A model generated the notes under the pieces. That model was not told the DNA's origin. It worked only from the letters and a program-made list of their open reading frames with translations, and did not search any database. Position numbers and translations under genes: made by a program. Source: Lewinellaceae bacterium SD302 (lineage in GTDB: Bacteria > Bacteroidota > Bacteroidia > Chitinophagales > Saprospiraceae). Taken from it: 64,000 nt of DNA. Location: contig PDLQ01000018.1 in assembly GCA_002591745.1 (NCBI GenBank), forward strand, positions 1 through 64,000, given 5' to 3'. Below are positions 11,032-63,775 of this stretch, piece after piece (within the stretch, counting starts at the first letter, position 1; each line of letters opens with the position of its first letter).

Positions 11032-11285
11032 TGGTTTATTATTGGCACGGCTACTTTGCTAGTCAGAAAGACCGCTTCGCTGATAAAATGCCGTATTCAG
11101 CGTGTTCTATCTGGAAATCTTGCGCCTAGCATCTATATTCTAGCGTCTTTTTCCTGGCAAAGTAGCAAGGTTTTCATTAAATCAAAAGGCCCTAGGCAAA
11201 GCTCCCCAAAAGCGAGGAACGAGCGTCCACAAGACGTACAGCGACATCTACAAGCGAAGCGTCCACAAGGCCAAAGGCCATCCGG
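11032..11285. repeat. leuC-leuA gap with inverted dispersed motifs
   Basis: GGCTACTTTGCTAGTCA on the plus strand (11049-11065) and its partner on the minus strand (11156-11170, CCTTGCTACTTTGCC, lacking the final CTAG) face each other across about 90 bp, recalling the element at 44774-44995. The rest (11180-11285) consists of short phrases such as AAGCGTCCACAAG and CCAAAGGCC that recur in other gaps. No gene is supported. Confidence 0.6.
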
Positions 11286-18148: not shown

Positions 18149-18358
18149 AACAATCGCTGATGTTTTCCTATTTCCAGTCCCCGACTCGGTCGGGAAGGGC
18201 AGATCATCAGCGAGATAGTGTTATTAAATGACCGAAAGCTATTTGCTTCGGCTTATAGTATGCACTGCTACTTTGAAGTCACGATAGTTGGTCAAGGTAG
18301 TGGTTATAACGATTTTCTAAGCCGCTAAACACTACTATTCAACTATCCTGATTACAAA

Positions 18359-18934
18359 TCAGTACCATTTTGCCGCATACTTTCCGTCACTGTTTTCCAT
18401 TTTGGCTAACAAAGTAGCAGGGTCTTCGGCAACGAGGAGACTGTCCAGATGCTCGCGTTTGAGCAACTTTACGTTCACGGCGTGTTTCAGGAATTCAAAG
18501 AGTTTGTCGTAGTAGCCATTGACGTTCAGAAAAGCGCAGGGTTTGGCGTGGATGCCAAGCTGATTCCAGGTGAAGACCTCAATGATCTCCTCCAGAGTAC
18601 CGATGCCGCCGGGCATGGCGATGAAGCCGTCGCTAAGATCGGCCATCATCATTTTGCGTTCGTGCATGTCTTTGACCACGCGCAGATCCGTAATACCGGT
18701 GTGGCCCACTTCCAGATCCATCAGGTGCTGGGGGATGACGCCAGTGACTTTACGACCGTTCTCCAGCATCCGGTCAGCGATAATACCCATCAGGCCTACG
18801 CTGCCGGCTCCGTAGACCAGGTCGATCTCTTTTTCCGTCATCCGGTCAGCCAGAGCGATGGCTTGCTCGGCGAAAGCAGGATCGGTACCGGGGTTGGAAC
18901 CGCAGAAGATGGCCAGGGAATTAAAATTCAACAT
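18359..18934 (-). CDS. LOG-family (cytokinin riboside monophosphate) phosphoribohydrolase
   Basis: The protein (191 residues from the ATG at 18934; seven more from 18955) shows the LOG/TIGR00730 signatures: 'LAIFCGSNPGTDP', 'DLVYGAGSVGLMG', 'MHERKMMMADLSDGFIAMPG' and the catalytic 'PGGIGTLEEIIEVFTW'. The family cleaves N6-modified AMP to the free base and ribose 5-phosphate; in bacteria the real substrates are often unclear. The C-terminal 'DPATLLAKM' is encoded by a copy of the dispersed repeat (18403-18423). The upstream region repeats the phrase TTGAATGTTGAAT, also seen at 19095-19110. Confidence 0.92.
   Translation of the reverse strand: MLNFNSLAIFCGSNPGTDPAFAEQAIALADRMTEKEIDLVYGAGSVGLMGIIADRMLENGRKVTGVIPQHLMDLEVGHTGITDLRVVKDMHERKMMMADLSDGFIAMPGGIGTLEEIIEVFTWNQLGIHAKPCAFLNVNGYYDKLFEFLKHAVNVKLLKREHLDSLLVAEDPATLLAKMENSDGKYAAKWY
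18403..18423 (-). repeat. Dispersed motif in the 3' part of the LOG gene
   Basis: On the minus strand ACCCTGCTACTTTGTTAGCCA, read as DPATLLAK. It lies in a coding region that is not a signal peptide, close to the variable C-terminus of the family. Confidence 0.6.
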
Positions 18935-19132
18935 ATTCGATTCAACATTCAACATTTTTGCTGCTCTTGTAGTCGCTCTTACGGATAAAAATCAAAAGCC
19001 TTTTATCTAACTCACTAGCATTCATAAAGTCATTGAGTTCTAGCTCACGTCTAAGCATAGGTTAACGCTGCTGCTCGAACGGCAATATGTCAAATATTGA
19101 ATGTTGAATCAAGATTGTTAAACGAGTTCCGA

Positions 19133-25228: not shown

Positions 25229-25250
25229 CCTTGCTACTTTGTTAGCCAAA
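25229..25250 (+). repeat. Dispersed motif upstream of lon
   Basis: CCTTGCTACTTTGTTAGCC plus AAA, one mismatch to consensus, intergenic, 116 bp before the lon ATG. Confidence 0.7.
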
Positions 25251-27827: not shown

Positions 27828-28223
27828 TTACTTGATACTCAATTTTCGAAACACTGTGGTCGGTGAGCTTGTATTCAACAGGTTTATGATTGAATCTTTA
27901 ATTTCTGGCCCCGCAAGATTTGGGTCGTAGATCAGCGTATCTACCCCGGGCTGCAGGAGCCAGGGAATGCGTTGCAGTACGCTTTCGGGAGAATCATCTG
28001 CATAACCGCTGACGGCAATTTTAGTGTCCTCTCTGCCTCGGAGATTGATCAGCCAATCGGCATCTGAGGCATTGGTCAATACAAGTGTATAAGTTTGCTT
28101 TTTTTCAGGTGCTACCGCCTGACTATCACTTTTTCTTAAAATTATCGGGGCTAGCAAAGTAGCAAGGCCAACGAGTAGCAAGATGGTCCCCGCTACCGTA
28201 GAAGATCGGTTGGAGGCGGCCAC
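27828..28223 (-). CDS. Small membrane-anchored protein of unknown function
   Basis: The 131-residue protein has one N-terminal membrane helix (about 10-28, 'VAGTILLLVGLATLLAPIIL') and an external domain of about 95 residues with no recognised family. The middle of the helix, 'GLATLLAP', is encoded by an exact copy of the dispersed repeat. Its start codon overlaps the stop of the FkbM methyltransferase gene by one base, so the two are translationally coupled; the function may concern the same glycan or lipid, but this is only context. Confidence 0.68.
   Translation of the reverse strand: MAASNRSSTVAGTILLLVGLATLLAPIILRKSDSQAVAPEKKQTYTLVLTNASDADWLINLRGREDTKIAVSGYADDSPESVLQRIPWLLQPGVDTLIYDPNLAGPEIKDSIINLLNTSSPTTVFRKLSIK
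28147..28169 (-). repeat. Dispersed motif inside a membrane-helix coding region
   Basis: On the minus strand GGCCTTGCTACTTTGCTAGC continues CCC; read as GLATLLAP in the preceding feature's transmembrane helix. Confidence 0.7.
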
Positions 28224-32081: not shown

Positions 32082-33755
32082 CTAATGCCGCCCGATCCGA
32101 AAGCCAAACCTGATTCCCAGGACTCCCCGAAATTTCACCGTGTCGTACTGCTGCGACCACAGTTTCCAGCCCGAAACGAAGAGCCCGTCCAGTTCCCGTT
32201 CACTCAGCTGGGTAAAGTGTAAATTCAGTACGGGGCCGAAAAAATAATGATTCACCTTGCCTCCCCGAATATCGAAAGTGTAGCGAATACTACCCACCAG
32301 GTTGAGGCGGTCTATCCAGTTGGCGCCCCGGTTGAGGTGAGCAACCACAAATTCCGTATTAGTCCGCCAGCCGGTAGAGTTGCCCAGCCGGTTCGTCCAG
32401 CCGAAGCCGTAGCCAAAACTCCAGGTGAGGGTTTTACGGGGGTCTTCGTTTTCCGGCTCATCAGCGATCAGTAGGTCACGGCGGCCCCAGCCCAATTCGA
32501 ATACGTTGTAAAGCCGGTGACTGCCCAACTTCAGGGTGCTGGCGTAAGGGGTAACGCTGCTCCGGGCCGTTTCCAGGTTGTTATAACCTTTGCGAACGAA
32601 ATTGACCAGACCAAAAGATCGTCCGGCTACGGTGTCCGCTACATTGACCAGTCCAATCTGCCCTTTTCTGACATCCACCGCCCGGTTGACCAATCCGATC
32701 TGTCGGTTCACGGTACCCTGCACGATGTTGAGTCCCGCCGAAATCTGGCTATTTACTCCGTTCAGCCCAACGTTGAGCAAGGAACTGATCTGGGTGCCTT
32801 CCAGCGTACGGTGGCAGTAATTGAAGATGCCTCCTACCTGAATACCGGTGCCGATTCCCGCTCCGTTGCCAAACAACCCTACCTGAACACCGGTCATCTG
32901 ACCGTTGACTACGTTTAAACCCCCACTGATCTGGGCCCCCTCCATATCACCCGTAATGCCGTTAAACAAGATACCTAATTCAGCGCCCACCAAGCCTCCA
33001 CTGAGGCCCGCCGGCAGGTTGAAACTGATGGAGTGTACCGTATTACTGGATTTGCCGGAGCTACTGCTCAAACCGGGCAAAATACTCACCCTGGCCAGGC
33101 GGCGGGTTTTGGCTTTTACGGTCGATACCTGCTTTTCGCCGGCACCTACCGGGCTGGATTGCCAGGGGATTTCCCCTGCTTCCTCCCGTGGAATTTCCGG
33201 AGCGGCAGGTACTACTGTGCGTACAGGTTTTACCAACTGCGTATCCACGACCACGGTGGCAATTTCTTCGGGTTCGTCTCTTTTTCTTCCGAAGATAGTG
33301 TTCACCTTGCGCGACGGTCGCCTGGCTTTTTCCGGCTCTGGCTCTTTTTCCGGCACTGCTTCTATGCTAGTCAAAAGTATCTCCTCGGCCAACCGGCTGC
33401 TATAACGCATCGCAATTCTGCCATTGATCACACGGTACTCAATGGGGGTGCCGGCGAAGAGAATATCCAGTGCTTCGCTAATCACCACCAGACCGCTCCG
33501 GGCCGTTATGAGTTGCTCCATCAGCTTTTTGGTCGGGCTGTAACTGAACGCAAGGTCGTAGCGGTTTTGTAAGTCGTCAATTACCTCGGCCAGTAACTCT
33601 TGCTCGTAACTGAAGCTGATGTAGGCTTCGTCTTTAGGCGTGTTTTTGGCTAGCGAAGTAGCTATGTTGGTAAAAAGCAACAGCCATACGGCCAGCGCCC
33701 GAACGGAAGACATCGCTGCGTATTTTAAGCATGTTTTCGAGACAGATGTCTTCAT
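32082..33755 (-). CDS. STN-domain outer-membrane protein with Gly/Asn surface repeats
   Basis: The 557-residue protein has a signal peptide (about 1-37), an STN domain (about 45-118, 'YISFSYEQELLAEVIDDLQN', 'AFSYSPTKKLMEQL'), a Pro/Glu-rich linker (about 130-225), a stretch of about 150 residues of short repeats of the form GLxNxxxGxxxGxQxGLxN ('GGLNVVNGQMTGVQVGLFGN', 'QISAGLNIVQGTVNRQIGLV'), and a C-terminal barrel-like segment ending 'LGIRFGFRIGRH'. STN domains normally sit at the front of TonB receptors or secretins and talk to FecR; here no TonB plug or receptor is attached. It starts 18 bp downstream of the FecR gene. The signal-peptide codons for 'IATSLAKN' are a decayed copy of the dispersed motif. 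Confidence 0.78.
   Translation of the reverse strand: MKTSVSKTCLKYAAMSSVRALAVWLLLFTNIATSLAKNTPKDEAYISFSYEQELLAEVIDDLQNRYDLAFSYSPTKKLMEQLITARSGLVVISEALDILFAGTPIEYRVINGRIAMRYSSRLAEEILLTSIEAVPEKEPEPEKARRPSRKVNTIFGRKRDEPEEIATVVVDTQLVKPVRTVVPAAPEIPREEAGEIPWQSSPVGAGEKQVSTVKAKTRRLARVSILPGLSSSSGKSSNTVHSISFNLPAGLSGGLVGAELGILFNGITGDMEGAQISGGLNVVNGQMTGVQVGLFGNGAGIGTGIQVGGIFNYCHRTLEGTQISSLLNVGLNGVNSQISAGLNIVQGTVNRQIGLVNRAVDVRKGQIGLVNVADTVAGRSFGLVNFVRKGYNNLETARSSVTPYASTLKLGSHRLYNVFELGWGRRDLLIADEPENEDPRKTLTWSFGYGFGWTNRLGNSTGWRTNTEFVVAHLNRGANWIDRLNLVGSIRYTFDIRGGKVNHYFFGPVLNLHFTQLSERELDGLFVSGWKLWSQQYDTVKFRGVLGIRFGFRIGRH
33645..33666 (-). repeat. Degenerate dispersed motif in a signal-peptide coding region
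   Basis: On the minus strand CATAGCTACTTCGCTAGCC plus AAA; three mismatches to the consensus. Read as IATSLAK at the signal-peptide end of the STN protein. Confidence 0.5.
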
Positions 33756-35752: not shown

Positions 35753-36904
35753 TCACCTGATTACGATCTTCGTCAAGATTTCTGCTGCCTCATCCAAAGT
35801 TTTCTCGTCTTTAGCGAAGCAGAAGCGTAACAGTCCGGTCTTTCGCTTGTCTTCGTAGAATTCTCCCATCGGGATGGCGGCGATACCGTGTTCTGTGATC
35901 AGCCGTTCGGCCAGTTCCAGGTCAGAACCGGACCACTGATCGGAAAAGTCGGCGCAAACAAAATAAGTGCCTGCACTGGGTAACAGCTGGAAAGATGCTT
36001 TGCTGAGTCCCGCTAAGAAACGATCGCGCCGGGCTTGGAACTGTTCTGGTAATTGTAAATAATGCTCTGGTTCTGCCAGGTAATCGGCCAGGGCGTACTG
36101 TACCGGCGTATAGGCACTGAAGGTGTTAAATTGGTGAATACGCCTCAACTCAGCACTGATCTCCGGAGGGGCAATGGCGTAACCCACCCGCCAGCCAGTA
36201 GCGTGAAAGGTCTTGCCGAAGGACATGGTGACAACCGCCCGACGGTAAAGTTTCGGGTACCGCAAGACACTGTGGTGAATCTGACCGTCGTAGACCAGAT
36301 GCTGGTAAACCTCGTCGCTCAGCAACAGAATATTCGTCCCTTCCAGTAGTTGCTGTAGTTCATGCATATCCGCCTCGCTCCAGATCGTCCCGGAAGGATT
36401 ATGGGGGTTGTTGATGATGATTAACCGCGTTCGTTCGTTGATCTTCTGGCGTACTTCATCCCAATTCACTTCAAAATCCGGGGCATTAAGGGATAGAGCT
36501 ATTGGTTGACCACCCGCCAGACGGATGGCCGGAACGTAGCTGTCGTAGGCGGGCTCAAAATAGATAACTTCATCGCCGGGATGCACCAGGGCCTGAATAC
36601 TGCTGAAAATGGCCTCGGTGGCGCCGATGGTTACGGTAATCTCCGTATCGGGATTCGGAGCGTAGCCGTAGAGAAGTTCCTTTTTACGGCTGATTGCCCG
36701 GCGCAATTCCGTTACCCCAGTGGCCGGGGCGTACTGGTTTTTACCGGCTTTCGTATGCTGATCGATCAATTCCGGCAGCCGGGGATCTACGCCAAAATTG
36801 GGGAATCCCTGGGCCAGATTTAAGCATTGGTACTTTGAAGCCATCATCCCGATTCTGGTGAAAATGGAGGTGCCGACGTCGGGTAGTTTGGAGGTGATCT
36901 GCAT
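35753..36904 (-). CDS. PLP-dependent aminotransferase, methionine/glutamine type
   Basis: The 383-residue class I aminotransferase resembles E. coli YbdL (methionine aminotransferase) and kynurenine aminotransferases: 'KYQCLNLAQGFPNFGVDPRL', 'INNPHNPSGTIW' with the PLP-ring residues, 'LLSDEVYQHLVYDG', the PLP lysine in 'MSFGKTFHATGWRVGYAIAP' and 'LLRFCFAKDEKTLDEAAE'. It probably transaminates 2-oxo-4-methylthiobutanoate to methionine with glutamine. The partner omega-amidase follows. A TACCTTTA box ends 5 nt before the ATG, so the transcript may be leaderless. Confidence 0.9.
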   Translation of the reverse strand: MQITSKLPDVGTSIFTRIGMMASKYQCLNLAQGFPNFGVDPRLPELIDQHTKAGKNQYAPATGVTELRRAISRKKELLYGYAPNPDTEITVTIGATEAIFSSIQALVHPGDEVIYFEPAYDSYVPAIRLAGGQPIALSLNAPDFEVNWDEVRQKINERTRLIIINNPHNPSGTIWSEADMHELQQLLEGTNILLLSDEVYQHLVYDGQIHHSVLRYPKLYRRAVVTMSFGKTFHATGWRVGYAIAPPEISAELRRIHQFNTFSAYTPVQYALADYLAEPEHYLQLPEQFQARRDRFLAGLSKASFQLLPSAGTYFVCADFSDQWSGSDLELAERLITEHGIAAIPMGEFYEDKRKTGLLRFCFAKDEKTLDEAAEILTKIVIR

Positions 36905-37047: not shown

Positions 37048-37073
37048 TTTTGGCTAGCAAAGTAGCAAGGTGG
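37048..37073 (-). repeat. Dispersed motif, intergenic
   Basis: On the minus strand CACCTTGCTACTTTGCTAGC continues CAAA: a full consensus copy. It faces away from the plus-strand copy at 37230. Confidence 0.75.
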
Positions 37074-37198: not shown

Positions 37199-38440
37199 GT
37201 GCGTTACCAGCTTTACTTCCTAGTTTTACTTGGCTACTTTGCTAGTCCGAACACGAACGCCGCCCAGTATTTTACTCCGCCGGACACCCAGCAAGTGATG
37301 ATTGACGTCACTTTCCTGTCCGCTGACTTACTGGAGGGCCGCCTGACCGCCACTCCCGGAGAAGCCCTGGCCGCCGACTATATCAGTGCAAGGATGCAGC
37401 AACTGAACCTGGAACCTCAGCCTAACCACGGGACATTTGTCCAGACCTTCGAATTTGATTATAAAGACAATCCCCATGCCGCCGAGACCCGCAAATTGGT
37501 GGGTAAAAACGTAGCCGGTTTCCTGGACAATGGAGCTAAGCAAACCGTAGTCATCGGGGCCCACTACGATCACCTGGGCTACGGCGGGATCGGTAGTTTG
37601 CACGCCGGGGAACCGGCCATCCATAACGGCGCTGACGATAATGCCAGTGGCATCGCCGCAATGCTTTATTTGGCGGATAAACTGCAAATGAAGGGAGCGC
37701 CCAAAAAGCGAAACTATCTGTTCATCGCTTTTTCCGGGGAAGAACTCGGGCTCGTCGGCTCCAAGCGCTGGGTTGCCGCTGATCGGGAAGGACTGGAGAT
37801 TGCCGCCATGCTTAACATGGACATGGTAGGCCGCTTGCGAAACAAAGACAACGTGTTGGCCATCTACGGTTTCGGAACCAGCGCGGCCTGGGCTGCTGCC
37901 TTGGATGCTTCTGAGAAAATGAGTGATATTACCAGCGTGCGTGATAGCTCCGGCGTTGGACCTTCCGATCATACTTCGTTTTACCTGGACGAAATTCCCG
38001 TCCTCGCCGCCTTTACCGGTCAGCACGGTGAGTACCACAAACCGGGTGACGACGCTCATCTGGTAGACTTTACGGGTATCATTAAAGTAGCTGATTACCT
38101 CTACGGCGTCCTGGAATCCATCAACGGTGAAAAGGAGCTGGTCTTTTTAAAGACCCGTCAGCGAGAGCAACGACAGGCTGCGGCTTTCAAAGTGAGTCTG
38201 GGCGTTATGCCGGATTACGTTTATGCCGGTGAAGGGATGAAGGTCGATGGTGTCACCGAAGGACGCCCGGGCTTCAAAGCCGGCATGCAGGCCGGTGATG
38301 TGATCGTAAAAATGGGAGATCTGGAGGTAAAAGACATTTACGATTACATGGAAGGCCTGAGTAAGAACAAGGCGGGAGACACGACGACGGTAGTGGTTGA
38401 TCGCAAAGGAGAATTGATCGAACTGGAAGTCACCTTCTAG
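37199..38440 (+). CDS. Secreted M28 zinc peptidase with C-terminal PDZ domain
   Basis: The 413-residue protein begins (GTG start) with a signal peptide 'YFLVLLGYFASPNTNAAQ'. The M28 zinc aminopeptidase domain shows the five metal ligands: H in 'VIGAHYDHLG', D in 'NGADDNASG', EE in 'AFSGEELGLVGS', D in 'MLNMDMVGRL' and H in 'HGEYHKPGDD'. Residues about 325-413 form a PDZ domain ('LGVMPDYVYAGEGMKVDGVT', 'PGFKAGMQAGDVIVKMGDLE'). It probably trims peptides outside the inner membrane. Codons for 'GYFASP' in the signal peptide are a copy of the dispersed motif. Confidence 0.92.
   Translation: MRYQLYFLVLLGYFASPNTNAAQYFTPPDTQQVMIDVTFLSADLLEGRLTATPGEALAADYISARMQQLNLEPQPNHGTFVQTFEFDYKDNPHAAETRKLVGKNVAGFLDNGAKQTVVIGAHYDHLGYGGIGSLHAGEPAIHNGADDNASGIAAMLYLADKLQMKGAPKKRNYLFIAFSGEELGLVGSKRWVAADREGLEIAAMLNMDMVGRLRNKDNVLAIYGFGTSAAWAAALDASEKMSDITSVRDSSGVGPSDHTSFYLDEIPVLAAFTGQHGEYHKPGDDAHLVDFTGIIKVADYLYGVLESINGEKELVFLKTRQREQRQAAAFKVSLGVMPDYVYAGEGMKVDGVTEGRPGFKAGMQAGDVIVKMGDLEVKDIYDYMEGLSKNKAGDTTTVVVDRKGELIELEVTF
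37230..37251 (+). repeat. Dispersed motif inside a signal-peptide coding region
   Basis: TTGGCTACTTTGCTAGTCC plus GAA, read as (L)GYFASPN. Same frame as in the S41 protease and as the abandoned frame before yigZ. Confidence 0.75.
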
Positions 38441-43311: not shown

Positions 43312-44655
43312 TTACTTGAAGAAACTGCGCCAGATGTCCAGTCCGTTGGCGTACACCAAGAGCGCCAGCACCAGGATGAATCCGACCATAGTCGCCTTTT
43401 CCAGGAACTTGTCGCTGGGCTTACGGCCGGTCACCACTTCGTAAAGCAGGAACATTACGTGGCCGCCATCCAGTGCCGGAATGGGTAAAAGGTTCATGAA
43501 AGCCAGGATCAGCGACAGTACAGCCGTCATGGTCCAGAAACGCTCCCAGTCCCAGGTGGTACCGAACATACCGGCAATACTGGCAAAACCACCCAGGCTC
43601 TCGCTGGCCTTGATCTTGCCTCGGAACATTTGACCGAACGATTTGACCTGGTCGCCCAGGAAGTTAACGCCCCGGGTTACACCGGCCGGAATCGCTTCGC
43701 CCAGGGTGTAATCGGCCCGTTCAGTAGCGAAGAAATCGGTCGGCGGTGCGATGCCGATTCCCAGCTTGGCGTCGTCGTTAAGCGTGGCTACGAGTTCAAT
43801 GGTATCCTGTTGCTCGTTTCGTAGAATGGTAAAGGTCAGGGTTTCATTGGCCCGGTCTTTTACCGCTTCGGTAAATTGATCATAAAAGGGCGTCGATTCT
43901 CCTTCCACGGCAACCAGACGATCCAGAGGCAACATGCCCGCCTTCTGGGCCGGGGAGCCGTCGGAGACCACCGTAACCATGGTTGGTTGGCGTACGGTAA
44001 AGAGACGTTCGTTCTTGTTTTCGTAACGGGTAAGTAGGTCGGACCATTTCGGGTCGATGGTCACCACCTGTTCCCGGCCACCACGATCTACGGTTACGGA
44101 GTTGACGTTGTCGATCGCAATGGCTTTCAGCAGCGTACGATCGCTAAAGCGTTCGAAATCCGCTTCGCCGATCTTCAGAATTTTATCACCCGTTGCCAGT
44201 CCGATCTCCATACCCAGTGAATCGGCGTGGATGCCGTATTCGGCACTCTTGGCGGGCAGGTATTCCTCGCCGTAGTACCAGAAAATCATCCCGAAAATGA
44301 AAAAGCCGAGAATGAAGTTGACCGTTACTCCACCCAGCATGATGATCAGCCGTTGCCAAGCCGGCTTGCTGCGAAATTCCCAGGGTTGAGGTTCGCTTTC
44401 CATCTGCTCGGTATCGAAGCTTTCGTCGATCATCCCGCTGATCTTTACGTAGCCACCCAGTGGTAGCCAACCGATTCCCCATTCGGTCTCACCGATCTTC
44501 TTTTTAAAGAGGCTAAAGCCGGCGTCAAAGAAAAGATAGAACTTTTCAACCCTGGTCTTGAAAGCGCGGGCCGGGAGAAAATGGCCGAATTCGTGTAAAA
44601 CGATCAAAAGGGAAAGGCTCAACAGTAGCTGGCCGATCTTAATCAGTATATCCAT
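43312..44655 (-). CDS. rseP: Site-2 intramembrane zinc protease RseP
   Basis: The 447-residue protein has the S2P layout: zinc motif 'LHEFGHFLPAR' in the first helix (about 20-28), the 'WLPLGGYVKISGMIDES' region, membrane helix at about 105-125, PDZ domains (about 205-285, 'VSDGSPAQKAGMLPLDRLVA') and the C-terminal 'FMNLLPIPALDGGHVMFLLY' with the third zinc ligand. It cleaves anti-sigma factors within the membrane after a first cut, so it may act on the single-pass anti-sigma and FecR proteins in this window. A perfect TACCTTTG box lies at 44702-44709 upstream. Confidence 0.96.
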   Translation of the reverse strand: MDILIKIGQLLLSLSLLIVLHEFGHFLPARAFKTRVEKFYLFFDAGFSLFKKKIGETEWGIGWLPLGGYVKISGMIDESFDTEQMESEPQPWEFRSKPAWQRLIIMLGGVTVNFILGFFIFGMIFWYYGEEYLPAKSAEYGIHADSLGMEIGLATGDKILKIGEADFERFSDRTLLKAIAIDNVNSVTVDRGGREQVVTIDPKWSDLLTRYENKNERLFTVRQPTMVTVVSDGSPAQKAGMLPLDRLVAVEGESTPFYDQFTEAVKDRANETLTFTILRNEQQDTIELVATLNDDAKLGIGIAPPTDFFATERADYTLGEAIPAGVTRGVNFLGDQVKSFGQMFRGKIKASESLGGFASIAGMFGTTWDWERFWTMTAVLSLILAFMNLLPIPALDGGHVMFLLYEVVTGRKPSDKFLEKATMVGFILVLALLVYANGLDIWRSFFK

Positions 44656-44773: not shown

Positions 44774-44995
44774 CATTGCTACTTTGCTAGTCACAAAAGG
44801 AATTAGGAGATAGGAACGCTAATGACAAATGATAACGGAAGAGTAAAATCTAAACAAGCTCTAAAACTGTGATTTTATACAACATGCAGCTGTTCATTGA
44901 ACGCATTACGTAAAGCTCCTATCTCCTAAAGCCAAGAAAGCGTAGTGGCCAAAGGCGGTCCTGTTTCCTATTTTTGACTAGCAAAGTAGCAATGC
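44774..44995. repeat. MITE-like 222-bp element with 19-bp terminal inverted repeats
   Basis: ATTGCTACTTTGCTAGTCA (44775-44793) at the left end is exactly mirrored at the right (44975-44993). Both ends continue into related sub-terminal sequence (AAAGGAATTAGGAGATAGGA inside the left; TTTCCTATTTTT inside the right). The interior right half aligns with 13352-13431. No ORF of useful length lies inside. It fills most of the rseP to metalloprotease gap (44656-45000), for which no gene is seen. It looks like a non-autonomous transposable element; target-site duplication is not obvious. Confidence 0.7.
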
Positions 44996-45000
44996 TTGCA

Positions 45001-47889
45001 TTAATCCACGATCACCTTTTTAACCCGCCGATCCTCTCCGGTACTAACCACCAGGTAATAAATGCCGGTACTTAGTTGGCTCGTATTCAATTTGATGCGT
45101 TGCCCACCGGCCGGGAAGTCACCACTGGCGATTTGCAACCCACTGACGTGAACCAGTTCGTAGCTTCCGGAAAGGGGAGCGAACAATTCAACGTTCAATT
45201 GCTCACGTACGGGGTTAGGGTAGATGCGTAAGCTCAGCGTCTCGCTTTCGATTTTTGCATTAACCAATGGAGAAAGGCTGGTTGAACCATCGAAATCGAT
45301 CTGGCGAATTTGATAGTAATAAGTGATGCCAGCCAATGCACGGTTATCGACGAAACTGTAATCCTGACGATTAGTACTGCTGCCGGCTCCGGCTACGAAG
45401 CCAAGGCTGCTAAAGCCTTTTGATGCGTCTTCGCTGCGCAATACTTCAAAACCACGGTTGCCACTCTCGGTCGCTGTACTCCAATTTACATCTATGGCTT
45501 TTTGACCAGCTTTGGCATTCACCGCCAGCCATTCAACCGGCAGTACGGGAGCCGCACCACCCAGTGCGAAGCCGGAAAAGCCACTGCTGTACTGGGCACT
45601 ATAGACCCAATCGCTGCCAAAGGAAAAGGTACTGACGGGAGCGGTTTCCAGGCTGGTGGCCGAACTTACGCTGCCGGCTGCTTTGACCATTTGTAAATTA
45701 CCAACCGGTTCTCCACTGGTTTGTGACCAGCCGATGATTTCTTCCTGAGTGTAATAGAGTGAGATGGTGAAACTGCCGTTCGGGTTGTTGTTCTCCGGCT
45801 CTACCCGGAAGGTTTTTTCGGTGATCCAGTCAGATTCCGGGGCGTTGCTTTGGAACGCGCCGGGTAAGATACTGCTGCCGGTTTCTACGTAGACGCTGGT
45901 ACAGCCGTAGTTGAATCCACTGGTGTTGATGAGGCTAAGCATTACGTCGCCGCTATTCTCATCGTAGAAATACAGTGTGCTGTTGGGGCCGAAGTCGCGT
46001 TCGGAGAAACCACTGCCACCGTTGGCATCGGTTTGAACCCCCACGTTTTGCAAGCCACTTACCTGTACGTTGTCGATGGCCCACCAATAGTCCCATTCAG
46101 CGATGTAAGTGAAGCGTAACTGGTTATTCGGTGCGGCGTAAGCACTCAGGTTGATGGTCTGATGATTAGGATTGCCCCAGTCGCCAATACTCCCCTGAGC
46201 TTCGGTGCGCAGGTAAACGGTCTGCCAGCTGTTACCATCGTAGATTTCAGTCCGGAAAGTTTCGTTGAAATCACCGTTGCCACTGTAGACCCGGGCGTAC
46301 TGGTCGAACTCAAGGGTGAGGTTTGTCACGCTGCTGCCATTGAAAACCGGGGTTGTGAGTACCTCGTTGGAGCTACTGCCGTTACCCGCCGCGTCACTGT
46401 TGGCGATGGCTTGAGGAGTGCCATTTAGCGTACTACCTACACCGTCCTGGTACCAGGTATTACCGGGATCGCCGCCGTCGGTGGCGACAAAGGGGGCGAT
46501 ACCATCATCAAAATTCTGGTCGATCAGGAAGACATTCTGAGAACCGGCACTGGGGGCTTGGTCGTCGTTAAGGATTGCTATTTCGTGTGATTGGTTCTCC
46601 GTACCGGGGGCAGCATCGCCTCCATTGGCATTTACCAAGAAACTGAAGCTGATGCTTTCATCGTTTTCAACCTGGCCGTCCTCGAAGATGGTGACGGTAA
46701 TGGTCTGGTTACTAGTCTGCCCGGCCGGGAAGGTGAGGGTAGCGGGGCTGTAAGTATAATCTACGCCATTCGTGGCCGTACCATTTGCCAGGAGGGTGAC
46801 GAAGGCCGTCGAACTGGGAGAAGCCGAAATACCTACTTCGATAGTGACTTGCTGTTCTCCATCGGTGGCGCAGCTGCTGGTGCCCTCTGAAACGGTCGTT
46901 TGGGTCTGTACAAAAGCAACCGTTGGAGTGGGGGGGACGCATACGGCCGAATTACTCGTTACGTTCTGCAAATTAGCCGCCAGGTAGTTTTCCATTACGG
47001 CTTGCTGGCCGGCGCTGAACATGTACATACAGGCGTCATTGGTGTAATCCATGTAGTTCATGTGGAGGTCCAAAGAGCCGCAGCTGATAGCATTATTGCC
47101 GGGGCAGCCCCCGTTGGAGGTTTGCTGGTCGGGGGTGTCGGCAATTCCGTCGTCATTTCCACAGCCACCACCCCAGATATGGGCTAAGTTAAGGTAGTGA
47201 CCCAGTTCGTGGGTCAGCGTGCGGCCCAAGTTGTAGGGGGCTCCCGGAACGAAACCCGTACAACCGGCTCCGGCTCCGAAGGCACTGTTGTCGCAAGTAA
47301 CTCCATCACCGTTACCATTCCCACCCAGCGGGGAAAAGCCGAGGGCACCGATATTGCGTACGAAGACGTTCAGGTAACCACTCCAGGCCGGGGCAGAACT
47401 ACTACCGTATACGTTCACCGTCACGGCGTGATCCCCTTCAGCGATGCCGGAACCGGCCGGGTGGTTCATGGTGGCCAGGCAGAATTCGATGCAGCTTTCT
47501 GCGTTTTCTACACCTGGATAATTGGAAGAGGTGCCATTGGTCCAGTTTACGATATCGGCGTTCAAGCCTTGGTAATCGTCATTCAGGATTTGAATTTGGT
47601 CCAGCGCCAGGTCCGTCAGGCACTGAAGGTCAAAGTTATTGGGCGCATCGGCGTAGTGAACGGCCATGGGTACGAGTACGGGATCGGGACAGAGTTCTGC
47701 CCGGCTCACCCCAACGCGCTCTTTGGTCAGTTTCCGGAATTTTTCCTGTCGATCCAGGTAGTTTTTTTGGTAGACGGGATCGTTTTCCATCCTTTGCTCG
47801 TGCAGTTCGGTAGTACTACAACTGCGCTCCTGGGCGGTTAGGCCGGTGGTAAAAACAAGGGCAATTATTAGAAGTAGTTGTCGTGTCAT
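45001..47889 (-). CDS. Secreted M43-family metalloprotease with Calx-beta and T9SS sorting domain
   Basis: From the ATG at 47889 the protein has 962 residues: signal peptide ('LLLIIALVFTTGLTAQ'), pappalysin-like M43 catalytic domain with 'THELGHYLNLAHIWGG' (extended zinc motif HExxHxxGxxH) and the Met-turn region 'DLHMNYMDYTNDACMYMFSA', a Calx-beta domain ('VSEGTSSC', 'NGVDYTYSPATLTFPAGQTS'), a jelly-roll-like segment, an Fn3-like module ('LPVEWLAVNAKAGQKAIDVN') and a type A Por secretion C-terminal domain ('LRIYPNPVREQLNVELFAPL', 'GIYYLVVSTGEDRRVKKVIV'). It is exported by the type IX system. The frame is open to 48099 but residues upstream of the signal peptide are repeat-like and are excluded. 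Confidence 0.93.
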   Translation of the reverse strand: MTRQLLLIIALVFTTGLTAQERSCSTTELHEQRMENDPVYQKNYLDRQEKFRKLTKERVGVSRAELCPDPVLVPMAVHYADAPNNFDLQCLTDLALDQIQILNDDYQGLNADIVNWTNGTSSNYPGVENAESCIEFCLATMNHPAGSGIAEGDHAVTVNVYGSSSAPAWSGYLNVFVRNIGALGFSPLGGNGNGDGVTCDNSAFGAGAGCTGFVPGAPYNLGRTLTHELGHYLNLAHIWGGGCGNDDGIADTPDQQTSNGGCPGNNAISCGSLDLHMNYMDYTNDACMYMFSAGQQAVMENYLAANLQNVTSNSAVCVPPTPTVAFVQTQTTVSEGTSSCATDGEQQVTIEVGISASPSSTAFVTLLANGTATNGVDYTYSPATLTFPAGQTSNQTITVTIFEDGQVENDESISFSFLVNANGGDAAPGTENQSHEIAILNDDQAPSAGSQNVFLIDQNFDDGIAPFVATDGGDPGNTWYQDGVGSTLNGTPQAIANSDAAGNGSSSNEVLTTPVFNGSSVTNLTLEFDQYARVYSGNGDFNETFRTEIYDGNSWQTVYLRTEAQGSIGDWGNPNHQTINLSAYAAPNNQLRFTYIAEWDYWWAIDNVQVSGLQNVGVQTDANGGSGFSERDFGPNSTLYFYDENSGDVMLSLINTSGFNYGCTSVYVETGSSILPGAFQSNAPESDWITEKTFRVEPENNNPNGSFTISLYYTQEEIIGWSQTSGEPVGNLQMVKAAGSVSSATSLETAPVSTFSFGSDWVYSAQYSSGFSGFALGGAAPVLPVEWLAVNAKAGQKAIDVNWSTATESGNRGFEVLRSEDASKGFSSLGFVAGAGSSTNRQDYSFVDNRALAGITYYYQIRQIDFDGSTSLSPLVNAKIESETLSLRIYPNPVREQLNVELFAPLSGSYELVHVSGLQIASGDFPAGGQRIKLNTSQLSTGIYYLVVSTGEDRRVKKVIVD

Positions 47890-47944
47890 ATTCAATCCTA
47901 AATTTGTGTGTATTCGTTTGTTTGGTTTGCATTTTTTGGGCTTC

Positions 47945-47979
47945 AACTCCGAGGACGAAGGACGATCACCGAAGGTAAA
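47945..47979 (+). repeat. 35-bp repeat shared with 14859-14895
   Basis: AACTCCGAGGAC then GGACGATCACCGAAGGTAAA match the stretch at 14859-14895 except for two extra bases and two substitutions in the middle. It lies in the 232-bp gap between the two metalloprotease genes, which holds nothing else recognisable. Confidence 0.7.
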
Positions 47980-48121
47980 GTAGCAGGGTTTACGGGGAAA
48001 CGTTCCATTTAACTTACCAGGGAAAAGCCTCTGCAAATTGAGAAGAAGGCTGGGTGGCTTCGTGACGAAACTATCAAGTCTCGGAAATATCCAACCCAAG
48101 GCATCGCTGAGAGAAATACAG

Positions 48122-51276: not shown

Positions 51277-54200
51277 ATGCAGCGATTTTTACTCCTGGTT
51301 ACCATACTGTTTTTAACCGGCACTGCTACTTTGTTAGCCCAAATCCGTCTGTCAGTAAGAGTAGATAGCGCCATCGTTACTACGGCTTGCGACGATCTCT
51401 TCAGCGATCCAGATCCTACTTATCAAGTCAGCGTAAACGGCAATCCGGCGATCACTTATGATTTCGGTGCAAACCCCTGCTTCCTGACCGCACCCAATGA
51501 GAATTACGATACGTTGGTGAACGGTGCCTGTAATCTGCCCGCTACGCTGGAGGTTTGTTTCAGCATTTTCGATAATGACGGCGACCTGATACCTTGTTTC
51601 GTGCTTCCGGAATGTTTTGAACAGGAATGTGTGACCGTGTCAATTCCAGTTGCCGGTACGGAAAGCCAGGAGAACATCAGTATCCAGGGGTCCAGTGATG
51701 GGGAGTTGTACTTCTCGGTGATCACCGAAGAAGATACCGACGACTTCAATTATATCTGCGGAGCCGTTGATTTCGGTGCGTTGGATTACGGCGCTACCCT
51801 GGGTGATGGTACGGCCGGACTTTACGACAATACTTGTGCTGATAACCTCAATGAGATCGATCCGGATCAGATTGGAATCGCTTTTGACAATGACCACGGC
51901 GTCTGGTTTACTTACACTACCGGCGATGACGTGGCTGGCTTGCAGTACGTACGACTTTTTTCAGACCCCGAAGGAACTGGCGACCCGATCGACCTGGAGG
52001 TGATGGTCTTTTCCGCCGATTCTTGTGACGGTGAACTGAGCCGTTTTCCACTCTACCGTCGCCAGAGTAATGGCGATGATACCCGCATTGAACTATACTG
52101 TCCCGAACCCAACACCACTTACTATATCCTGGTAGATGGTAAAGGAGCTACCGATGATACCCAACAGGGCGTTTTCAGCATCCAGATTGAAGATGCCGGC
52201 CTGCCCGAAGCCGGAGACCTGCGTTGTGATGCCACCGAACTGGGCGTCGTACCCGAAGGAGGCAGTATTAATCTGCCCGAGCCCCACAGTAATTTTTGCT
52301 CCGGCTTTTCGGATGACCCGCCCGTGTTGCCGGCTTTCATTTCCCGAAATTCGGTTTGGGTGCAGTTCATTGCCCCGTCTTCGGGACACGTCGAGATTGC
52401 CGGTACCAGTGAAGATCCCTTAGGCATCGACCTGGAGCTGGCACTGTACCAGAGTACTAACGATGCGTGTGATGGCAACTTCCAGCACCTCTTCAGCCAA
52501 CAAGACCTGAGTACCTACGATAATGTTTTTGAAATGACCTGTCTGGACCCCGGTCGCCCGTACTGGGTACTGATTGACGGGAGTGCGTTCAGTGGGCTGG
52601 GATATTTCGATATTACGGTTACCGATCTGGGGGATATCCGGCCCGTCGGTATGCGCTTTGATACCGTTTGTGCGGGTGAAAGTCTGGAAGTCATTCCCGG
52701 AGTCTTTTACGACGCATCGGGAACCTACATGGATACGGTAAAGATCGGCAGTACCAACTGTGATAGTATTATCGTCACCGAATTACTCGTTCTCGATCCG
52801 GTGGTGCTCGATCTGGAGCAGATTCGCCCCGCTATCGGCCCCGCGGGTACGGACGGAGAAGGCACGGCCAGCGCCAGTGGCGGCTTCGGTGACCTGACAA
52901 TCACCTGGTGTGATGGAACGACCGGTCCTACCAACAACAACCTCGTTGCCGGAACTGTATGCTGCGTAACCGTAGTGGATGAGAAAGGCTGTATGGCCGA
53001 TAGCTGCTTTACCGTTGATTTCGTGGACCCGCTGATGGAGAGTTTCACCACTGCTGCCGTGCTGTGTAACGGGGAGGCGAACGGAAGCTTTACCTTCACC
53101 GTAACCGGAGGGCGGCCCGATTTTGAATATTCCTACATTGGAATCACCGACCCAACCATTGCCGGTAGCGGCACGTCCGCTATGGCCGGCGTGCCGATTA
53201 CGATCGACCAGTTACCGGCTGGTCAGTACCAGGTTGTGTACCAAAGCCAGTTCCAGAGTATTACCTTTACGGTAGAGATTACGGAGCCAGATTTACTGAC
53301 CATCGCAATCGATGAGGTAACTCCCATCAGTTGTTTTCAGGCCTGCGACGGAAACGTGACCGTAACGACTTCCGGAGGAACGGGAATGTTGACGGTAGAC
53401 GTTAGTTCACCCGCTGATTTCGGTTGCCCAGGTACCTATACGTTTACGGTTACCGACGAAAACAACTGTATGGCTACGGTCAGTCAGGAATTGATCGAGC
53501 CGGAGGAATTCATTGCCGAAGTTGCCACCTTCAACGATGTCAACTGTTTCGATGGTTCGGATGGTGCGATCACGGTTACAACCAACGGTAACCCAAGCCT
53601 TTACCAGTGGAGTAATGGCGGCAGTACTGCTACCATCACTGACCTTTCTCCCGGACTTTATACGCTCACGGTCACCAACGATGATGGTTGCCAGGATGTG
53701 ATTAGCCAGACGATCAGCCAGCCGGCCAGTCCGCTGGGGGGCTCCATTGACCAAATTGAATTTATTACCTGCTTCGATTCCCAGGATGGTGCTTTGCAAG
53801 CCAGGGCAACGGGCGGAACGGGTGTGATCACCTTTCAGTGGTCCAACGGGCAAACCTCCCCGATCATTGACGATCTGGGGCCTGGCTTCTATTCGGTGAC
53901 CCTTACGGACGGCCTGGGCTGTGAGTTTGTGGTGCCGTTTAGCCTCGACGCTCCCCAGCCTCTGGAAGCAAGTTCTGTAGGTTATGCTCTACGCTGCCCC
54001 GATCCGATAGATGCCGGTTTCGTGAGCATACCCACCGTGAACGGGGGAGAAGGGCCATACCTTTATTCCCTGGACGGTGAGTTCTTTGGAATGGACACCG
54101 TGTTCACCGGGCTGGAGGCCGGACGTTACGATGTAGTCGTGCAGGATGCCCTGGGCTGCGAGATCGTGCTGCCCACCGACGTTACTCCCGCCCCCATTCT

Positions 54201-54726
54201 CGTAGCTGACCTGGGGCAAGATCAACAGATCCTTCTCGGGGATTCCTTGTCACTGAACTTAATTGCTAACAGCGACGATTTGCTGTACAATTGGTCGGTA
54301 GACCCTGCTTTCCAGGGAAGTCGCTTATTCGTACGCCCCCAGGATAATCTTACGGTTTTCGTTTCCGTGCTGGACACCGTGACGGATTGTACGGCCAGTG
54401 CAGAACTGCGTATCCTGGTCGATCGACAGCCCAGAATCTACGTGCCTACGGCATTCTCTCCCAATGGAGACGGGGTGAACGATTTCTTTTTTCCATTCGG
54501 TGGCACGGACGTTGTAGCCATCGCCGACTTCCGCATCTTCGGCCGTTACGGCAACCTGGTCTTTGAGCGAAGCGCCAGTTTTGAACCCAACGATCCGAAT
54601 AATGGCTGGGACGGGATGGTCAATGAAAAGCCCGCTTCTATGGGCGTCTACGTCTACTCGGCCAGCGTCACTTTCTTTGACGGGCGAACGGAGATCGTAA
54701 AGGGGGAGATCAACGTGATCAGGTAG
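51277..54726 (+). CDS. SprB-repeat adhesin-like protein with gliding-motility C-terminal domain
   Basis: The 1149-residue protein has a signal peptide ending 'TGTATLLAQ', two related beta-sandwich regions with conserved cysteines (about 150-300, 310-460; 'GVWFTYTTGDD', 'SVWVQFIAPSSGHVEIAGTS'), then at least five SprB-type repeats of about 75 residues ('CFQACDGNVTVTTSGGTGML', 'CFDGSDGAITVTTNGNPSLY', 'CFDSQDGALQARATGGTGVI') and a CHU_C/type B sorting domain ('IYVPTAFSPNGDGVNDFFFP', 'VFERSASFEPNDPNNGWDGM', 'GVYVYSASVTFFDGRTEIVK'). It is exported and displayed by T9SS; SprB-like proteins act in adhesion and gliding. The signal-peptide end is encoded by a dispersed-motif copy. Confidence 0.93.
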   Translation: MQRFLLLVTILFLTGTATLLAQIRLSVRVDSAIVTTACDDLFSDPDPTYQVSVNGNPAITYDFGANPCFLTAPNENYDTLVNGACNLPATLEVCFSIFDNDGDLIPCFVLPECFEQECVTVSIPVAGTESQENISIQGSSDGELYFSVITEEDTDDFNYICGAVDFGALDYGATLGDGTAGLYDNTCADNLNEIDPDQIGIAFDNDHGVWFTYTTGDDVAGLQYVRLFSDPEGTGDPIDLEVMVFSADSCDGELSRFPLYRRQSNGDDTRIELYCPEPNTTYYILVDGKGATDDTQQGVFSIQIEDAGLPEAGDLRCDATELGVVPEGGSINLPEPHSNFCSGFSDDPPVLPAFISRNSVWVQFIAPSSGHVEIAGTSEDPLGIDLELALYQSTNDACDGNFQHLFSQQDLSTYDNVFEMTCLDPGRPYWVLIDGSAFSGLGYFDITVTDLGDIRPVGMRFDTVCAGESLEVIPGVFYDASGTYMDTVKIGSTNCDSIIVTELLVLDPVVLDLEQIRPAIGPAGTDGEGTASASGGFGDLTITWCDGTTGPTNNNLVAGTVCCVTVVDEKGCMADSCFTVDFVDPLMESFTTAAVLCNGEANGSFTFTVTGGRPDFEYSYIGITDPTIAGSGTSAMAGVPITIDQLPAGQYQVVYQSQFQSITFTVEITEPDLLTIAIDEVTPISCFQACDGNVTVTTSGGTGMLTVDVSSPADFGCPGTYTFTVTDENNCMATVSQELIEPEEFIAEVATFNDVNCFDGSDGAITVTTNGNPSLYQWSNGGSTATITDLSPGLYTLTVTNDDGCQDVISQTISQPASPLGGSIDQIEFITCFDSQDGALQARATGGTGVITFQWSNGQTSPIIDDLGPGFYSVTLTDGLGCEFVVPFSLDAPQPLEASSVGYALRCPDPIDAGFVSIPTVNGGEGPYLYSLDGEFFGMDTVFTGLEAGRYDVVVQDALGCEIVLPTDVTPAPILVADLGQDQQILLGDSLSLNLIANSDDLLYNWSVDPAFQGSRLFVRPQDNLTVFVSVLDTVTDCTASAELRILVDRQPRIYVPTAFSPNGDGVNDFFFPFGGTDVVAIADFRIFGRYGNLVFERSASFEPNDPNNGWDGMVNEKPASMGVYVYSASVTFFDGRTEIVKGEINVIR
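51321..51344 (+). repeat. Dispersed motif inside a signal-peptide coding region
   Basis: CACTGCTACTTTGTTAGCCC plus AAAT; read as TATLLAQI at the signal-peptide cleavage region of the SprB-repeat protein. Confidence 0.7.
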
Positions 54727-55143: not shown

Positions 55144-56028
55144 ATGATTCATACCATCGACCTTAATTTTCTCCACGCCGGCGAAGCCATCGCCGCTTAC
55201 GTTGTTCCCACTGATAATGGTGCCGTTTTAATTGAATGTGGTCCCCATTCGACTCTGCCGGCTTTATTGGCCGGATTAGAGCGTCTCGGATTACGCCCGG
55301 AGGATATTCATACACTTCTGCTTACCCATATCCATTTCGACCACGCCGGTGCCGCCTGGTGGTTTGCCGCAAAGGGAACCAACGTCTATGTACACCCCAG
55401 AGGGTACAAGCACCTACTGGCCCCCGAACGGCTCTATGAATCTGCCCGCATGATTTACCAGGATAAAATGGATGAACTATGGGGGCGAATGGAACCGATT
55501 GCTGAAGAGAAACTCTTTTCCGTGGATGACGGAGCAGTAGTAGAGGCGGATGGATTGACATTCCGTGCTTTGCACAGTCCGGGCCACGCGGTTCATCACA
55601 TCAGCTGGCAGTTGGGTGAGGATCTTTTCACCGGAGATGTGGGCGGAGTTAAGATCAGTGACGGGCCGGTCGTTCCACCTTGTCCGCCTCCGGATATCAA
55701 CGTGGAAGATTGGGTGGCTAGCATAGAAGCAATGCTGAAGGTGAACGCCAGGCGCTGGTACCTGACACATTACGGACCCATTGATAACGTAACTGAACAC
55801 GCCGGCTATCTTCTACAAAGACTGGAGGAGTACAAGAATTGGATGGAACCTCATTTTAGAAACGGAGAAAGCGCGGAGACGATCACGCCCAAATTCGTCG
55901 CTTACGTAGAAGAAGACTTTCGCAGCGAAGGACTTTCAGAAGAAACGATCAGTTCATACCGAGCAGCCAATCCCCCCTGGATGAGCGTAATGGGGCTGCT
56001 CCGATACTGGAAGAAGCAACTTCAATAA
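55144..56028 (+). CDS. Metallo-beta-lactamase-fold hydrolase
   Basis: The 294-residue protein has the MBL zinc motif 'LLTHIHFDHAGAAWWFA' (HxHxDH), the later ligands H in 'FRALHSPGHAVHHISW', D in 'DLFTGDVGGVKI' and H in 'WYLTHYGPIDN', plus a C-terminal helical part of about 70 residues. This form is close to glyoxalase II-like hydrolases; the substrate is not known. No signal peptide, so it is cytoplasmic. It is the second gene after the small membrane protein. Confidence 0.9.
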   Translation: MIHTIDLNFLHAGEAIAAYVVPTDNGAVLIECGPHSTLPALLAGLERLGLRPEDIHTLLLTHIHFDHAGAAWWFAAKGTNVYVHPRGYKHLLAPERLYESARMIYQDKMDELWGRMEPIAEEKLFSVDDGAVVEADGLTFRALHSPGHAVHHISWQLGEDLFTGDVGGVKISDGPVVPPCPPPDINVEDWVASIEAMLKVNARRWYLTHYGPIDNVTEHAGYLLQRLEEYKNWMEPHFRNGESAETITPKFVAYVEEDFRSEGLSEETISSYRAANPPWMSVMGLLRYWKKQLQ

Positions 56029-59471: not shown

Positions 59472-59551
59472 GGAAGGTCTTTTAAACCAGATGCGACAGC
59501 CGGAAATAATGGTGGATGCAGCACTGCTGCCTGGAGTCAGCTTGCAATAGA

Positions 59552-59575
59552 CTTTGCTACTTTGCTAGTCCAAAT
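59552..59575 (+). repeat. Dispersed motif just upstream of yigZ
   Basis: CTTTGCTACTTTGCTAGTCC plus AAAT. In the frame of the following gene it would read LCYFASPN, identical to the peptide in the S41 and M28 signal peptides, but the gene's own start is downstream at 59591. Confidence 0.75.
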
Positions 59576-59577
59576 AC

Positions 59578-59585
59578 TACCTTCG
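59578..59585 (+). promoter_or_regulatory. Possible -7 box for yigZ, leaderless arrangement
   Basis: TACCTTCG fits TAnnTTTG at seven of eight positions and ends 5 nt before the ATG at 59591. Confidence 0.3.
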
Positions 59586-59590
59586 CGCTC

Positions 59591-60247
59591 ATGGATACCC
59601 CTTCCGAAGACAAATACCGCATTATTACTGCCCCAGGTACCGGAGAGTTCAAGGACCGCAGTAGTAAATTCATCGGTTTCGCCCATCCGGCACGCACGGA
59701 AGCGGAGGCGTTAAACTGGGTAGAGCATTACCAAAAACTGCACCACAAGGCCCGCCATTGGTGCTATGCTTACCGGCTGGGCAACGATGGTAACCGCTTC
59801 CGGGCCAACGACGACGGGGAACCCAGTGGAACGGGCGGCAAACCCATTCTGGGGCAGATCGATAAACTGGGTGTAAGTGATACCGTGGTGGTGGTAGTGC
59901 GTTATTACGGAGGAGTGAAACTGGGCACCTCCGGACTGATCAACGCCTACCGGGAAGGAGCGGTGCTGGCCCTGGCCGATGCCACGGTGGGCGAACGTTA
60001 CCTCACTCACCGACTGGTGGTCAATTTTGGCTACGAACTGATGGGCAAAGTAATGTCGGCCCTCAGCAGCCTGGAACTGGAAATGGCCGAGAACGATTTC
60101 GGTGCTACGCCCAGCCTGATAATTGAAGTGCCCCGCTCGGAAGCATTGGCTACCCGCCGTCGGCTGTTGGCCGCCATTGGTGAGGTCTACCTGGAAGAGG
60201 TGGATGAGGAATTTGCGGTGGAGGGGTTGGATATTGTGATTGGGTGA
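59591..60247 (+). CDS. yigZ: YigZ/IMPACT-family protein
   Basis: From the ATG at 59591 the 218-residue protein matches YigZ: N-terminal IMPACT domain ('KDRSSKFIGFAHPARTEAEA', 'ARHWCYAYRLGNDG', 'FRANDDGEPSGTGGKPILGQ', 'VVVVVRYYGGVKLGTSGLIN') and a C-terminal DUF1949 ferredoxin-like domain. The family has an RNase/tRNA-protection or translation-linked role that is still unsettled. An upstream frame to 59516 would add a signal-peptide-like leader encoded by the dispersed motif; as YigZ is cytoplasmic this extension is rejected. Confidence 0.93.
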   Translation: MDTPSEDKYRIITAPGTGEFKDRSSKFIGFAHPARTEAEALNWVEHYQKLHHKARHWCYAYRLGNDGNRFRANDDGEPSGTGGKPILGQIDKLGVSDTVVVVVRYYGGVKLGTSGLINAYREGAVLALADATVGERYLTHRLVVNFGYELMGKVMSALSSLELEMAENDFGATPSLIIEVPRSEALATRRRLLAAIGEVYLEEVDEEFAVEGLDIVIG

Positions 60248-63753: not shown

Positions 63754-63775
63754 CATTGCTACTTTGTTAGTCATG
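63754..63775 (+). repeat. Dispersed motif abutting a start codon
   Basis: CATTGCTACTTTGTTAGTC is followed directly by the ATG of the sulfatase gene. It therefore occupies the place where the promoter and leader would be. Confidence 0.7.

Follow-up and report, generated by a model that had tools for sequence, protein, structure and literature searches.

A dispersed motif with strand-wise spacing and genus-wide dialects as a candidate DNA uptake signal in Neolewinella

According to a 2025 paper (PMC12616744), the Neisseriaceae and Pasteurellaceae are the only two families known to tell their own DNA apart when binding it, by means of a short enriched motif. One account puts the share of uptake sequence copies in open reading frames at 65 percent for H. 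influenzae and 35 percent for N. gonorrhoeae (PMC1939737). It also reports that copies are evenly spaced, favour neither orientation and arose gradually through point mutations, with about 10 percent forming inverted repeats. Placement within genes is described elsewhere as uneven (PMC2346458). For the neisserial sequences, spacing is reported to match conversion-fragment length, inverted pairs to act as terminators, and density to be about one per 1.15 kb; many recent copies are argued to come by recombination, not stepwise mutation (PMC2397512). Eight DUS dialects are reported in the Neisseriaceae (PMC3630211). Among Bacteroidota, natural competence has been reported for Riemerella. Our search of open-licence PMC papers found no transformation paper on Neolewinella and, in titles and the starts of abstracts, no uptake sequence from Bacteroidota or from Lewinella, Neolewinella or Saprospiraceae.

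The locus considered here spans positions 44774-44995 of the window, by which we mean the whole 64-kb stretch of DNA analysed. Its neighbours are an M50 site-2 protease gene (43312-44655) on one side and an M43 peptidase gene (45001-48099) on the other, both on the minus strand. The latter, assigned by Pfam, has a secretion-system C-terminal sorting domain. A preliminary description had read the locus as a MITE-like element, from a multi-copy family, without coding capacity and bounded by a 19-bp perfect terminal inverted repeat. The repeat is real and, at its longest, measures 20 bp; the arm, CATTGCTACTTTGCTAGTCA, occupies 44774-44793 and 44975-44994. Coding capacity is indeed absent, the longest stop-free run in the 222 bp being 27 codons. 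Folded as single-stranded DNA, the 222 nt reach -44.3 kcal/mol (z -8.3 versus shuffles), and a long hairpin is predicted. An Rfam scan of the 64-kb window, at gathering thresholds, matched nothing. The related copy claimed at 13.2 kb is also there: GAACGCAT, GCTCCTAT, TCCTAAAG and CCAAAGGCG occur at 44899, 44915, 44924 and 44949 and again at 13349, 13365, 13374 and 13399. Similarly, the arm GGAAATAGGAG recurs at positions 5360, 13236 and 13266, with its reverse complement at 13366. With up to three mismatches allowed, the window holds 25 occurrences of the 14-bp arm core where 3.5 are expected, and none of 100 shuffles reached 25. For GAAATAGGAG, with up to one mismatch, there are 12 occurrences (3.9 expected; one of 100 shuffles reached 12).

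The element is two things: a copy of a palindromic repeat family, which we call family A, between two copies of a dispersed motif, which we call motif B. The left motif B copy is the arm at 44774-44793 (plus strand, position weight matrix score 36.1). The right copy, at 44975-44994 (minus strand, score 39.9), is inverted and sits just 3' of the M43 peptidase gene stop. Between them, at 44799-44973, is a diverged family A copy (nhmmer, 3.2e-43, with a model partly seeded by this same copy). Neolewinella aurantiaca lacks both the M43 peptidase gene and the element; the 168-bp spacer there, with flanks not aligned to the base, contains no motif B. The 13-kb locus of that species has no match to the family A model. 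Note that the M43 gene sits between M4 and M50 peptidase genes, and has no counterpart in the syntenic Neolewinella aurantiaca locus (L211).

Family A repeats are about 190 bp long. The other full copy in the window, at 13235-13432, has ends without motif B according to nhmmer and the motif scan. Folded as RNA, the stretch 13234-13434 reaches -79.5 kcal/mol (z -6.7). A short derivative, with arms only, lies at 5360-5452 and gives weak nhmmer matches to the family. Used as a query, 13235-13432 produced 31 matches in its own genome, some copies giving two; at E <= 0.001, the 20 congeners gave no match. A looser search, with three mismatches to a 15-mer from the arm, matched 221 times, and the reversed control 206 times; this was uninformative at that looseness and better matches alone were used. 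No target-site duplications were apparent by eye in 17 family A copies. As for an autonomous partner, the sole gene seen between A-type arms, where one arm pair brackets C1:109607-109915, encodes a PF05635 four-helix-bundle protein, not a transposase. Family A may be a non-coding relative of PF05635-carrying elements. There are seven PF05635 genes in this genome (L337-L343, at C61:24145, C1:109607, C74:5217, C60:182254, C82:142511, C57:76474 and C73:20573). Four of the six others (L337 and L339-L341) have inverted arms made of differing, other short repeats. By eye, a stretch resembling TTTTAAACGTTTATATTCGA...CGTTTAAAAACG lies upstream of each of L339-L342. Separately, the 15-mer TTCTATTTCCTGAAA has at least 14 exact occurrences over many contigs of the genome, and is possibly yet another dispersed repeat.

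How often are the two sequences adjacent? We surveyed the edges of 26 family A copies, some of them truncated, inspecting 120 bp on each side; one copy that appeared on both strands was counted once. Motif B was found at both ends of three copies, at one end of two and at neither end of 21. Hence, motif B is not the terminus of family A. The non-coding palindromic family that the preliminary description proposed does exist; the proposed terminus does not belong to it. Further copies with the motif at both ends were also found, at L002 and L004, and there the motif is imperfect. In these two, as at 44774, all motifs B face inwards. By eye, the pair flanking L004 has different spacer forms (see below), so is not one duplicated repeat. 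Another inward-facing motif B pair, at 11047-11169, with starts 103 bp apart (detected by weight matrix), has an interior with no match to the family A model. Inward motifs B occupy 8 of at most 52 family A edges, where intergenic positions taken at random would give about 1.6 percent per edge. At some ten times that rate, the association is probably not due to chance. We ascribe it, provisionally, to a shared preference for intergenic space, with the A-rich ends of family A supplying part of the 3' flank of motif B. The reported element thus consists of a hairpin repeat next to two representatives of a far more numerous class, and is not evidence for a MITE origin of the motif.

Motif B is a separate dispersed sequence, of about 20 letters, with the form GCTACTTTG(NY or A)AGYC plus flanks. 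In a 1.264-Mb sample, GCTACTTTG occurs 373 times and the reversed word 19 times. The 373 comprise 223 with the form GCTACTTTG-N-Y-AG, 102 with the form GCTACTTTG-A-AG and 48 with neither. In both spacer forms, a C is conserved four bases upstream, the AG is followed by YC and the 3' flank is A-rich. Weight matrices for the two forms, trained on the same 1.264-Mb sequence that they were then used to scan, gave 391 matches and 2 in the reversed control. This is about one per 3.2 kb, and extrapolates to roughly 1,700 copies genome-wide. The matches divide into 199 on the plus strand and 192 on the minus strand. A stricter 15-mer, TTGCTACTTTGCTAG, was found 954 times in the whole genome with up to two mismatches, and its reversed pattern 31 times. 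Uptake sequences are marked by a single short asymmetric word that is in strong excess across the genome, as seen here, and by its occurrence in both orientations, inside and between genes.

In the window, weight matrix matches fall in all of these settings. Intergenic copies are at 4788-4807 (plus), 25230-25249 (plus), 37050-37069 (minus) and 28147-28166 (minus, called intergenic), with copies of the AAG spacer form at 3194-3213 (minus) and 18264-18283 (plus); another, at 63755-63774 (plus), abuts an ATG by eye. Six copies supply N-terminal codons. These are at 6810-6829 (minus) in an S41 peptidase gene, where the codons look signal-peptide-like by eye, 15308-15327 (plus) in CDS 15242-16186, 33646-33665 (minus) in CDS 32082-33755, 37230-37249 (plus) in CDS 37199-38440, 51322-51341 (plus) in CDS 51277-54726 and 59553-59572 (plus) in CDS 59516-60247. 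Other in-gene copies are at 8003-8022 (plus) in CDS 7003-8175 and 18402-18421 (minus) in CDS 18359-18955, with a weak match (score 18.2) at 33355-33374 (plus) in CDS 32082-33755. Antisense copies are at 36826-36845 (plus, AAG spacer form) in CDS 35753-36904 and, weakly (score 17.7), at 55714-55733 (minus) in CDS 55144-56028.

Across the sample, 191 of the 391 copies are in called genes, 199 are intergenic and one is unclassified. Note that gene positions are from our own open reading frame caller, not curated annotation. The first 120 nt of genes hold 35 of the 191 in-gene copies, over the share expected from length (9 percent of coding length), and the last 120 nt hold 11, under the length-expected share. 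By eye, several in-gene motifs of the window read as signal peptides. The motif is read in several frames, and on both strands, giving ATL, FKV, NKV, QSS and CYF. In RecQ (C1:5930-8116) the motif replaces codons of relatives, and alignment is gapless in 13 of 13. Hence, the motif at this position arose by substitution. Beyond RecQ, we kept ortholog pairs with E <= 1e-25, 45 percent identity and six aligned codons each side. This left nine pairs from eight genes, two gapless and seven gapped, in poorly conserved stretches. In MiaA, which has matches in 19 of 20 congeners, the motif immediately follows the P-loop as judged by eye.

Could motif B be a site for chromosome organisation, defence-self discrimination or regulation, bound by a nucleoid protein or acting as terminator or promoter, and kept by selection at each place? 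Such a role would fit the density of the motif, which is 0.8-1.6 per kb between genes versus 0.17 per kb of coding sequence, and some short inverted motif pairs can form hairpins. Against this must be set the near half of all copies that are inside called genes. Furthermore, orientation with respect to genes is not fixed. In co-directional intergenic stretches, 58 motifs (29+29) are sense and 56 (21+35) antisense relative to the flanking genes, so motif B has no promoter polarity and promoter or terminator roles are poorly matched. A structural binding site would also not be expected to produce the strand-wise repulsion described below. On balance, we think a role of this kind unlikely. We also considered whether TACTTTG, within the motif, signifies a Bacteroidota promoter. 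The Bacteroidota promoter element is TAnnTTTG; the spacing in motif B is one base short of this, there is no polarity to genes, and the idea was rejected. As a separate observation, motif pairs at C126 90775, C60 252908 and L186 (G019) flank or form GC-rich hairpins that look terminator-like by eye.

The spacing of motif B is regular if each strand is considered separately. The 379 gaps between same-strand copies have a mean of 6.4 kb and a coefficient of variation of 0.50, where random scatter would give about 1. With strands merged, the value is 0.83. With all pairs sorted into 1-kb bins, the three shortest bins hold 4, 12 and 20 same-strand pairs and each later one, as far as 20 kb, holds 47-70. 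For opposite strands, the shortest bin holds 91 pairs and those beyond it 46-68 each. We compared these counts with 2,000 shuffles in which strand labels were permuted over unchanged motif positions. Same-strand pairs closer than 1 kb, of which there are 4, numbered 47.6 +/- 5.0 in shuffles (lowest 29). For separations of 1-3 kb the 32 observed compare with 64.7 +/- 5.6 (lowest 42). Conversely, the 91 opposite-strand pairs below 1 kb exceed the 47.4 of shuffles (highest 66). The per-strand gap variation and the pair correlation thus describe non-random, even spacing, another property of uptake sequences. The same is apparent in five congeners, pooled to give 130 motif matches: at 0-3 kb there are 16 same-strand and 51 opposite-strand pairs, and at 3-10 kb there are 83 and 80. 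A rare exception to same-strand exclusion is found at C137 79833-79950 (L146), where a short apparent tandem duplication has two same-strand motifs B.

A recombination signal such as Chi could give the same strand-wise repulsion. In this case a helicase-nuclease would read motif B on one strand, stop degrading and start RecA-dependent repair; selection for repair would keep one site per strand every few kb. Since strand-specific action predicts strand-specific regular spacing, as observed, a Chi-like role is a strong rival, and the copy number of motif B is of the Chi order. Other properties fit poorly. Known Chi sites measure 5-8 bp, whereas in motif B at least a dozen positions are under strong constraint, with flanks in addition. 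The orientation of Chi in E. coli follows replication; motif B orientation has no tie to GC skew (r = 0.05 over 63 bins). Finally, the spelling of the motif varies between congeners, which would be unexpected if it were read by a conserved housekeeping enzyme. Taken together, we regard a Chi-like function as improbable.

The variation in spelling is best seen across the genus. From sequence comparisons, we take the genome studied to be a Neolewinella; the nearest named match to its M50 protease is from Neolewinella aurantiaca (68 percent, in a comparison that may leave out records of the genome itself). The spelling of the genome studied, TTGCTACTTTGCTAG with up to two mismatches, occurs 1-10 times in each of 20 congeners, never above the reversed control, and 0-35 times in each of 79 other genomes from the same order. 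Counting k-mers in congeners identified related words: TTGCACCTGCGGCCGCGCCC in G002 and G005, GCACCCGCGACCGCGCC in G019, CGGCACCTGCGTCCGCGCC in G015 and TTTTACCTGCGCTCCGCCGCC in G001. We removed the last base of TTGCACCTGCGGCCGCGCCC, to give TTGCACCTGCGGCCGCGCC, and searched with up to three mismatches. There are 63-1,639 copies in 19 of the 20 congeners and 6 in the twentieth (G001), with 4-24 for the reversed control in each of the 20. The same search finds 8 copies in the genome studied and 0-13 in each of the 79 genomes from other genera. Also in line with the genus assignment, the 13-kb locus of Neolewinella aurantiaca contains three exact GCACCTGCG words, followed by the rest of the dialect. 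Like uptake sequences, motif B therefore has dialects among related species. When G002 and G005, or G015 and G019, are pooled, a TGCTC/TGCTT-like box appears about 16 bp upstream of the motif; none was seen in G001 or the genome studied. In a RecQ tree that covers 14 members of the genus and a single distant outgroup, the genome studied is the first of the 14 to branch. This would fit its divergent spelling, with a long-branch effect as an alternative. De novo k-mer counts, in 80 kb from each of five other genera, detected no comparable word, in samples small enough for a rarer motif to escape. Moderately enriched words were noted in other genera (L199-L206), namely ATCCGTGTTCCC in G037, and CGCATGGCCAGCAG and ACCAACCGTCGG in G042. 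Tandem arrays, with units of about 93 bp and about 62 bp, dominate the k-mer counts at L152 (G001, 3799-5520) and L167 (G015, 250-600).

The congeners also bear on a REP-like origin of motif B, in which a RAYT (Y1) transposase would have spread it. Y1_Tnp is present in 20 of 21 genomes of the genus, and the one such gene in the genome studied has two motif B copies within about 310 bp downstream. With a motif every 3 kb or so, such proximity is unremarkable. The exception, G018, lacks a Y1_Tnp match, at 95 percent completeness, and yet has 1,059 copies of the dialect motif. Furthermore, REPs are hairpin-forming and extragenic, whereas motif B shows no palindrome by eye and has half its copies in genes. 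We do not favour this explanation, and consider it very unlikely. As for solo motifs being relics of a 222-bp mobile unit with motif B termini, the three family A copies with inward motifs at both ends, and the excess of such motifs at family A edges, are outweighed by the in-gene copies, the RecQ replacement without insertion, the family A copies lacking the motif, the mixed spacer forms at L004 and congeners that carry B-like words and no family A match at E <= 0.001, so that we reject this part of the preliminary description, largely refuted by RecQ and the bare family A copies, as scarcely credible.

Our preferred explanation is that motif B is a DNA uptake signal of naturally transformable Neolewinella, which we believe is probably correct. 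Its basis is the abundance of the motif, its presence on both strands and in genes, its origin by substitution in RecQ, its dialects within one genus and its regular strand-wise spacing. Because abundance, in-gene presence, inverted pairs, even spacing and dialects have been reported for uptake sequences, we judge this role the most likely. A surface receptor would prefer DNA with the cell's own version of the motif. In Neisseria, the cognate DUS receptor is a ComP-like minor pilin. The preferred DNA would be imported and then recombined. Motif-bearing alleles would be imported more often, and copies would accumulate, by molecular drive, where protein coding tolerates them. If import were directional, with each orientation serving DNA on one side, strand-wise spacing would follow, with about one motif per 6 kb per strand and depletion below 3 kb. 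One ComEC-family competence protein (PF03772) was found in the genome; this proves little, since ComEC-family proteins are in 10 of 14 control genomes. Counting against uptake are the strand-wise repulsion, which a Chi-like signal could also give, a motif density below that of Neisseria DUS and the case made for Neisseria that many recent copies came by recombination (PMC2397512).

A broader proposal, to which we give an even chance, is that Neolewinella has independently evolved a genomic uptake-signal system, which would be the third known and the first beyond the Proteobacteria. This would have a bipartite variable-spacer word, genus-wide dialects and one motif array per strand, in whose exclusion distance of about 3 kb the length of imported DNA and the direction of import are recorded. 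If a motif with dialects behaves like known uptake sequences in the genomes of a Bacteroidota genus, this would suggest that such systems arise repeatedly. The natural set of dialects would allow the receptor to be found by co-variation. The strand-wise spacing would open a long-standing question, whether uptake sequences spread through selfish drive or for a selected function, to tests on genome sequences.

How do the two sequences compare with known systems? Family A resembles MITEs in being small, multi-copy, palindromic and non-coding. It differs in having no apparent target-site duplication (by eye), no transposase seen with the same ends and a terminus that is not motif B. The likeness to PF05635 23S_rRNA_IVP elements is that one of the seven PF05635 genes sits between A-type arms. 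Motif B, like Chi, is asymmetric, with hundreds to thousands of copies, and strand-wise action would fit its spacing; unlike Chi, it is longer, changes spelling between congeners and shows no replication polarity. We do not file motif B under the DUS or USS families, since these are defined by preferential uptake and motif B is a candidate uptake signal. With the USS of Pasteurellaceae it shares a conserved core, weaker flanking preferences, even spacing and many copies inside genes. The cores are unrelated, and the AT-rich regions of USS are downstream whereas the secondary box of G002 and G005, and of G015 and G019, is upstream. Compared with the DUS of Neisseriaceae, motif B is unrelated and longer, has a variable spacer of 1-2 nt, a lower density and a Bacteroidota host; its regular spacing was established per strand. 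With DUS it shares a copy number of about a thousand or higher, placement both inside genes and between them, dialects among relatives and inverted pairs.
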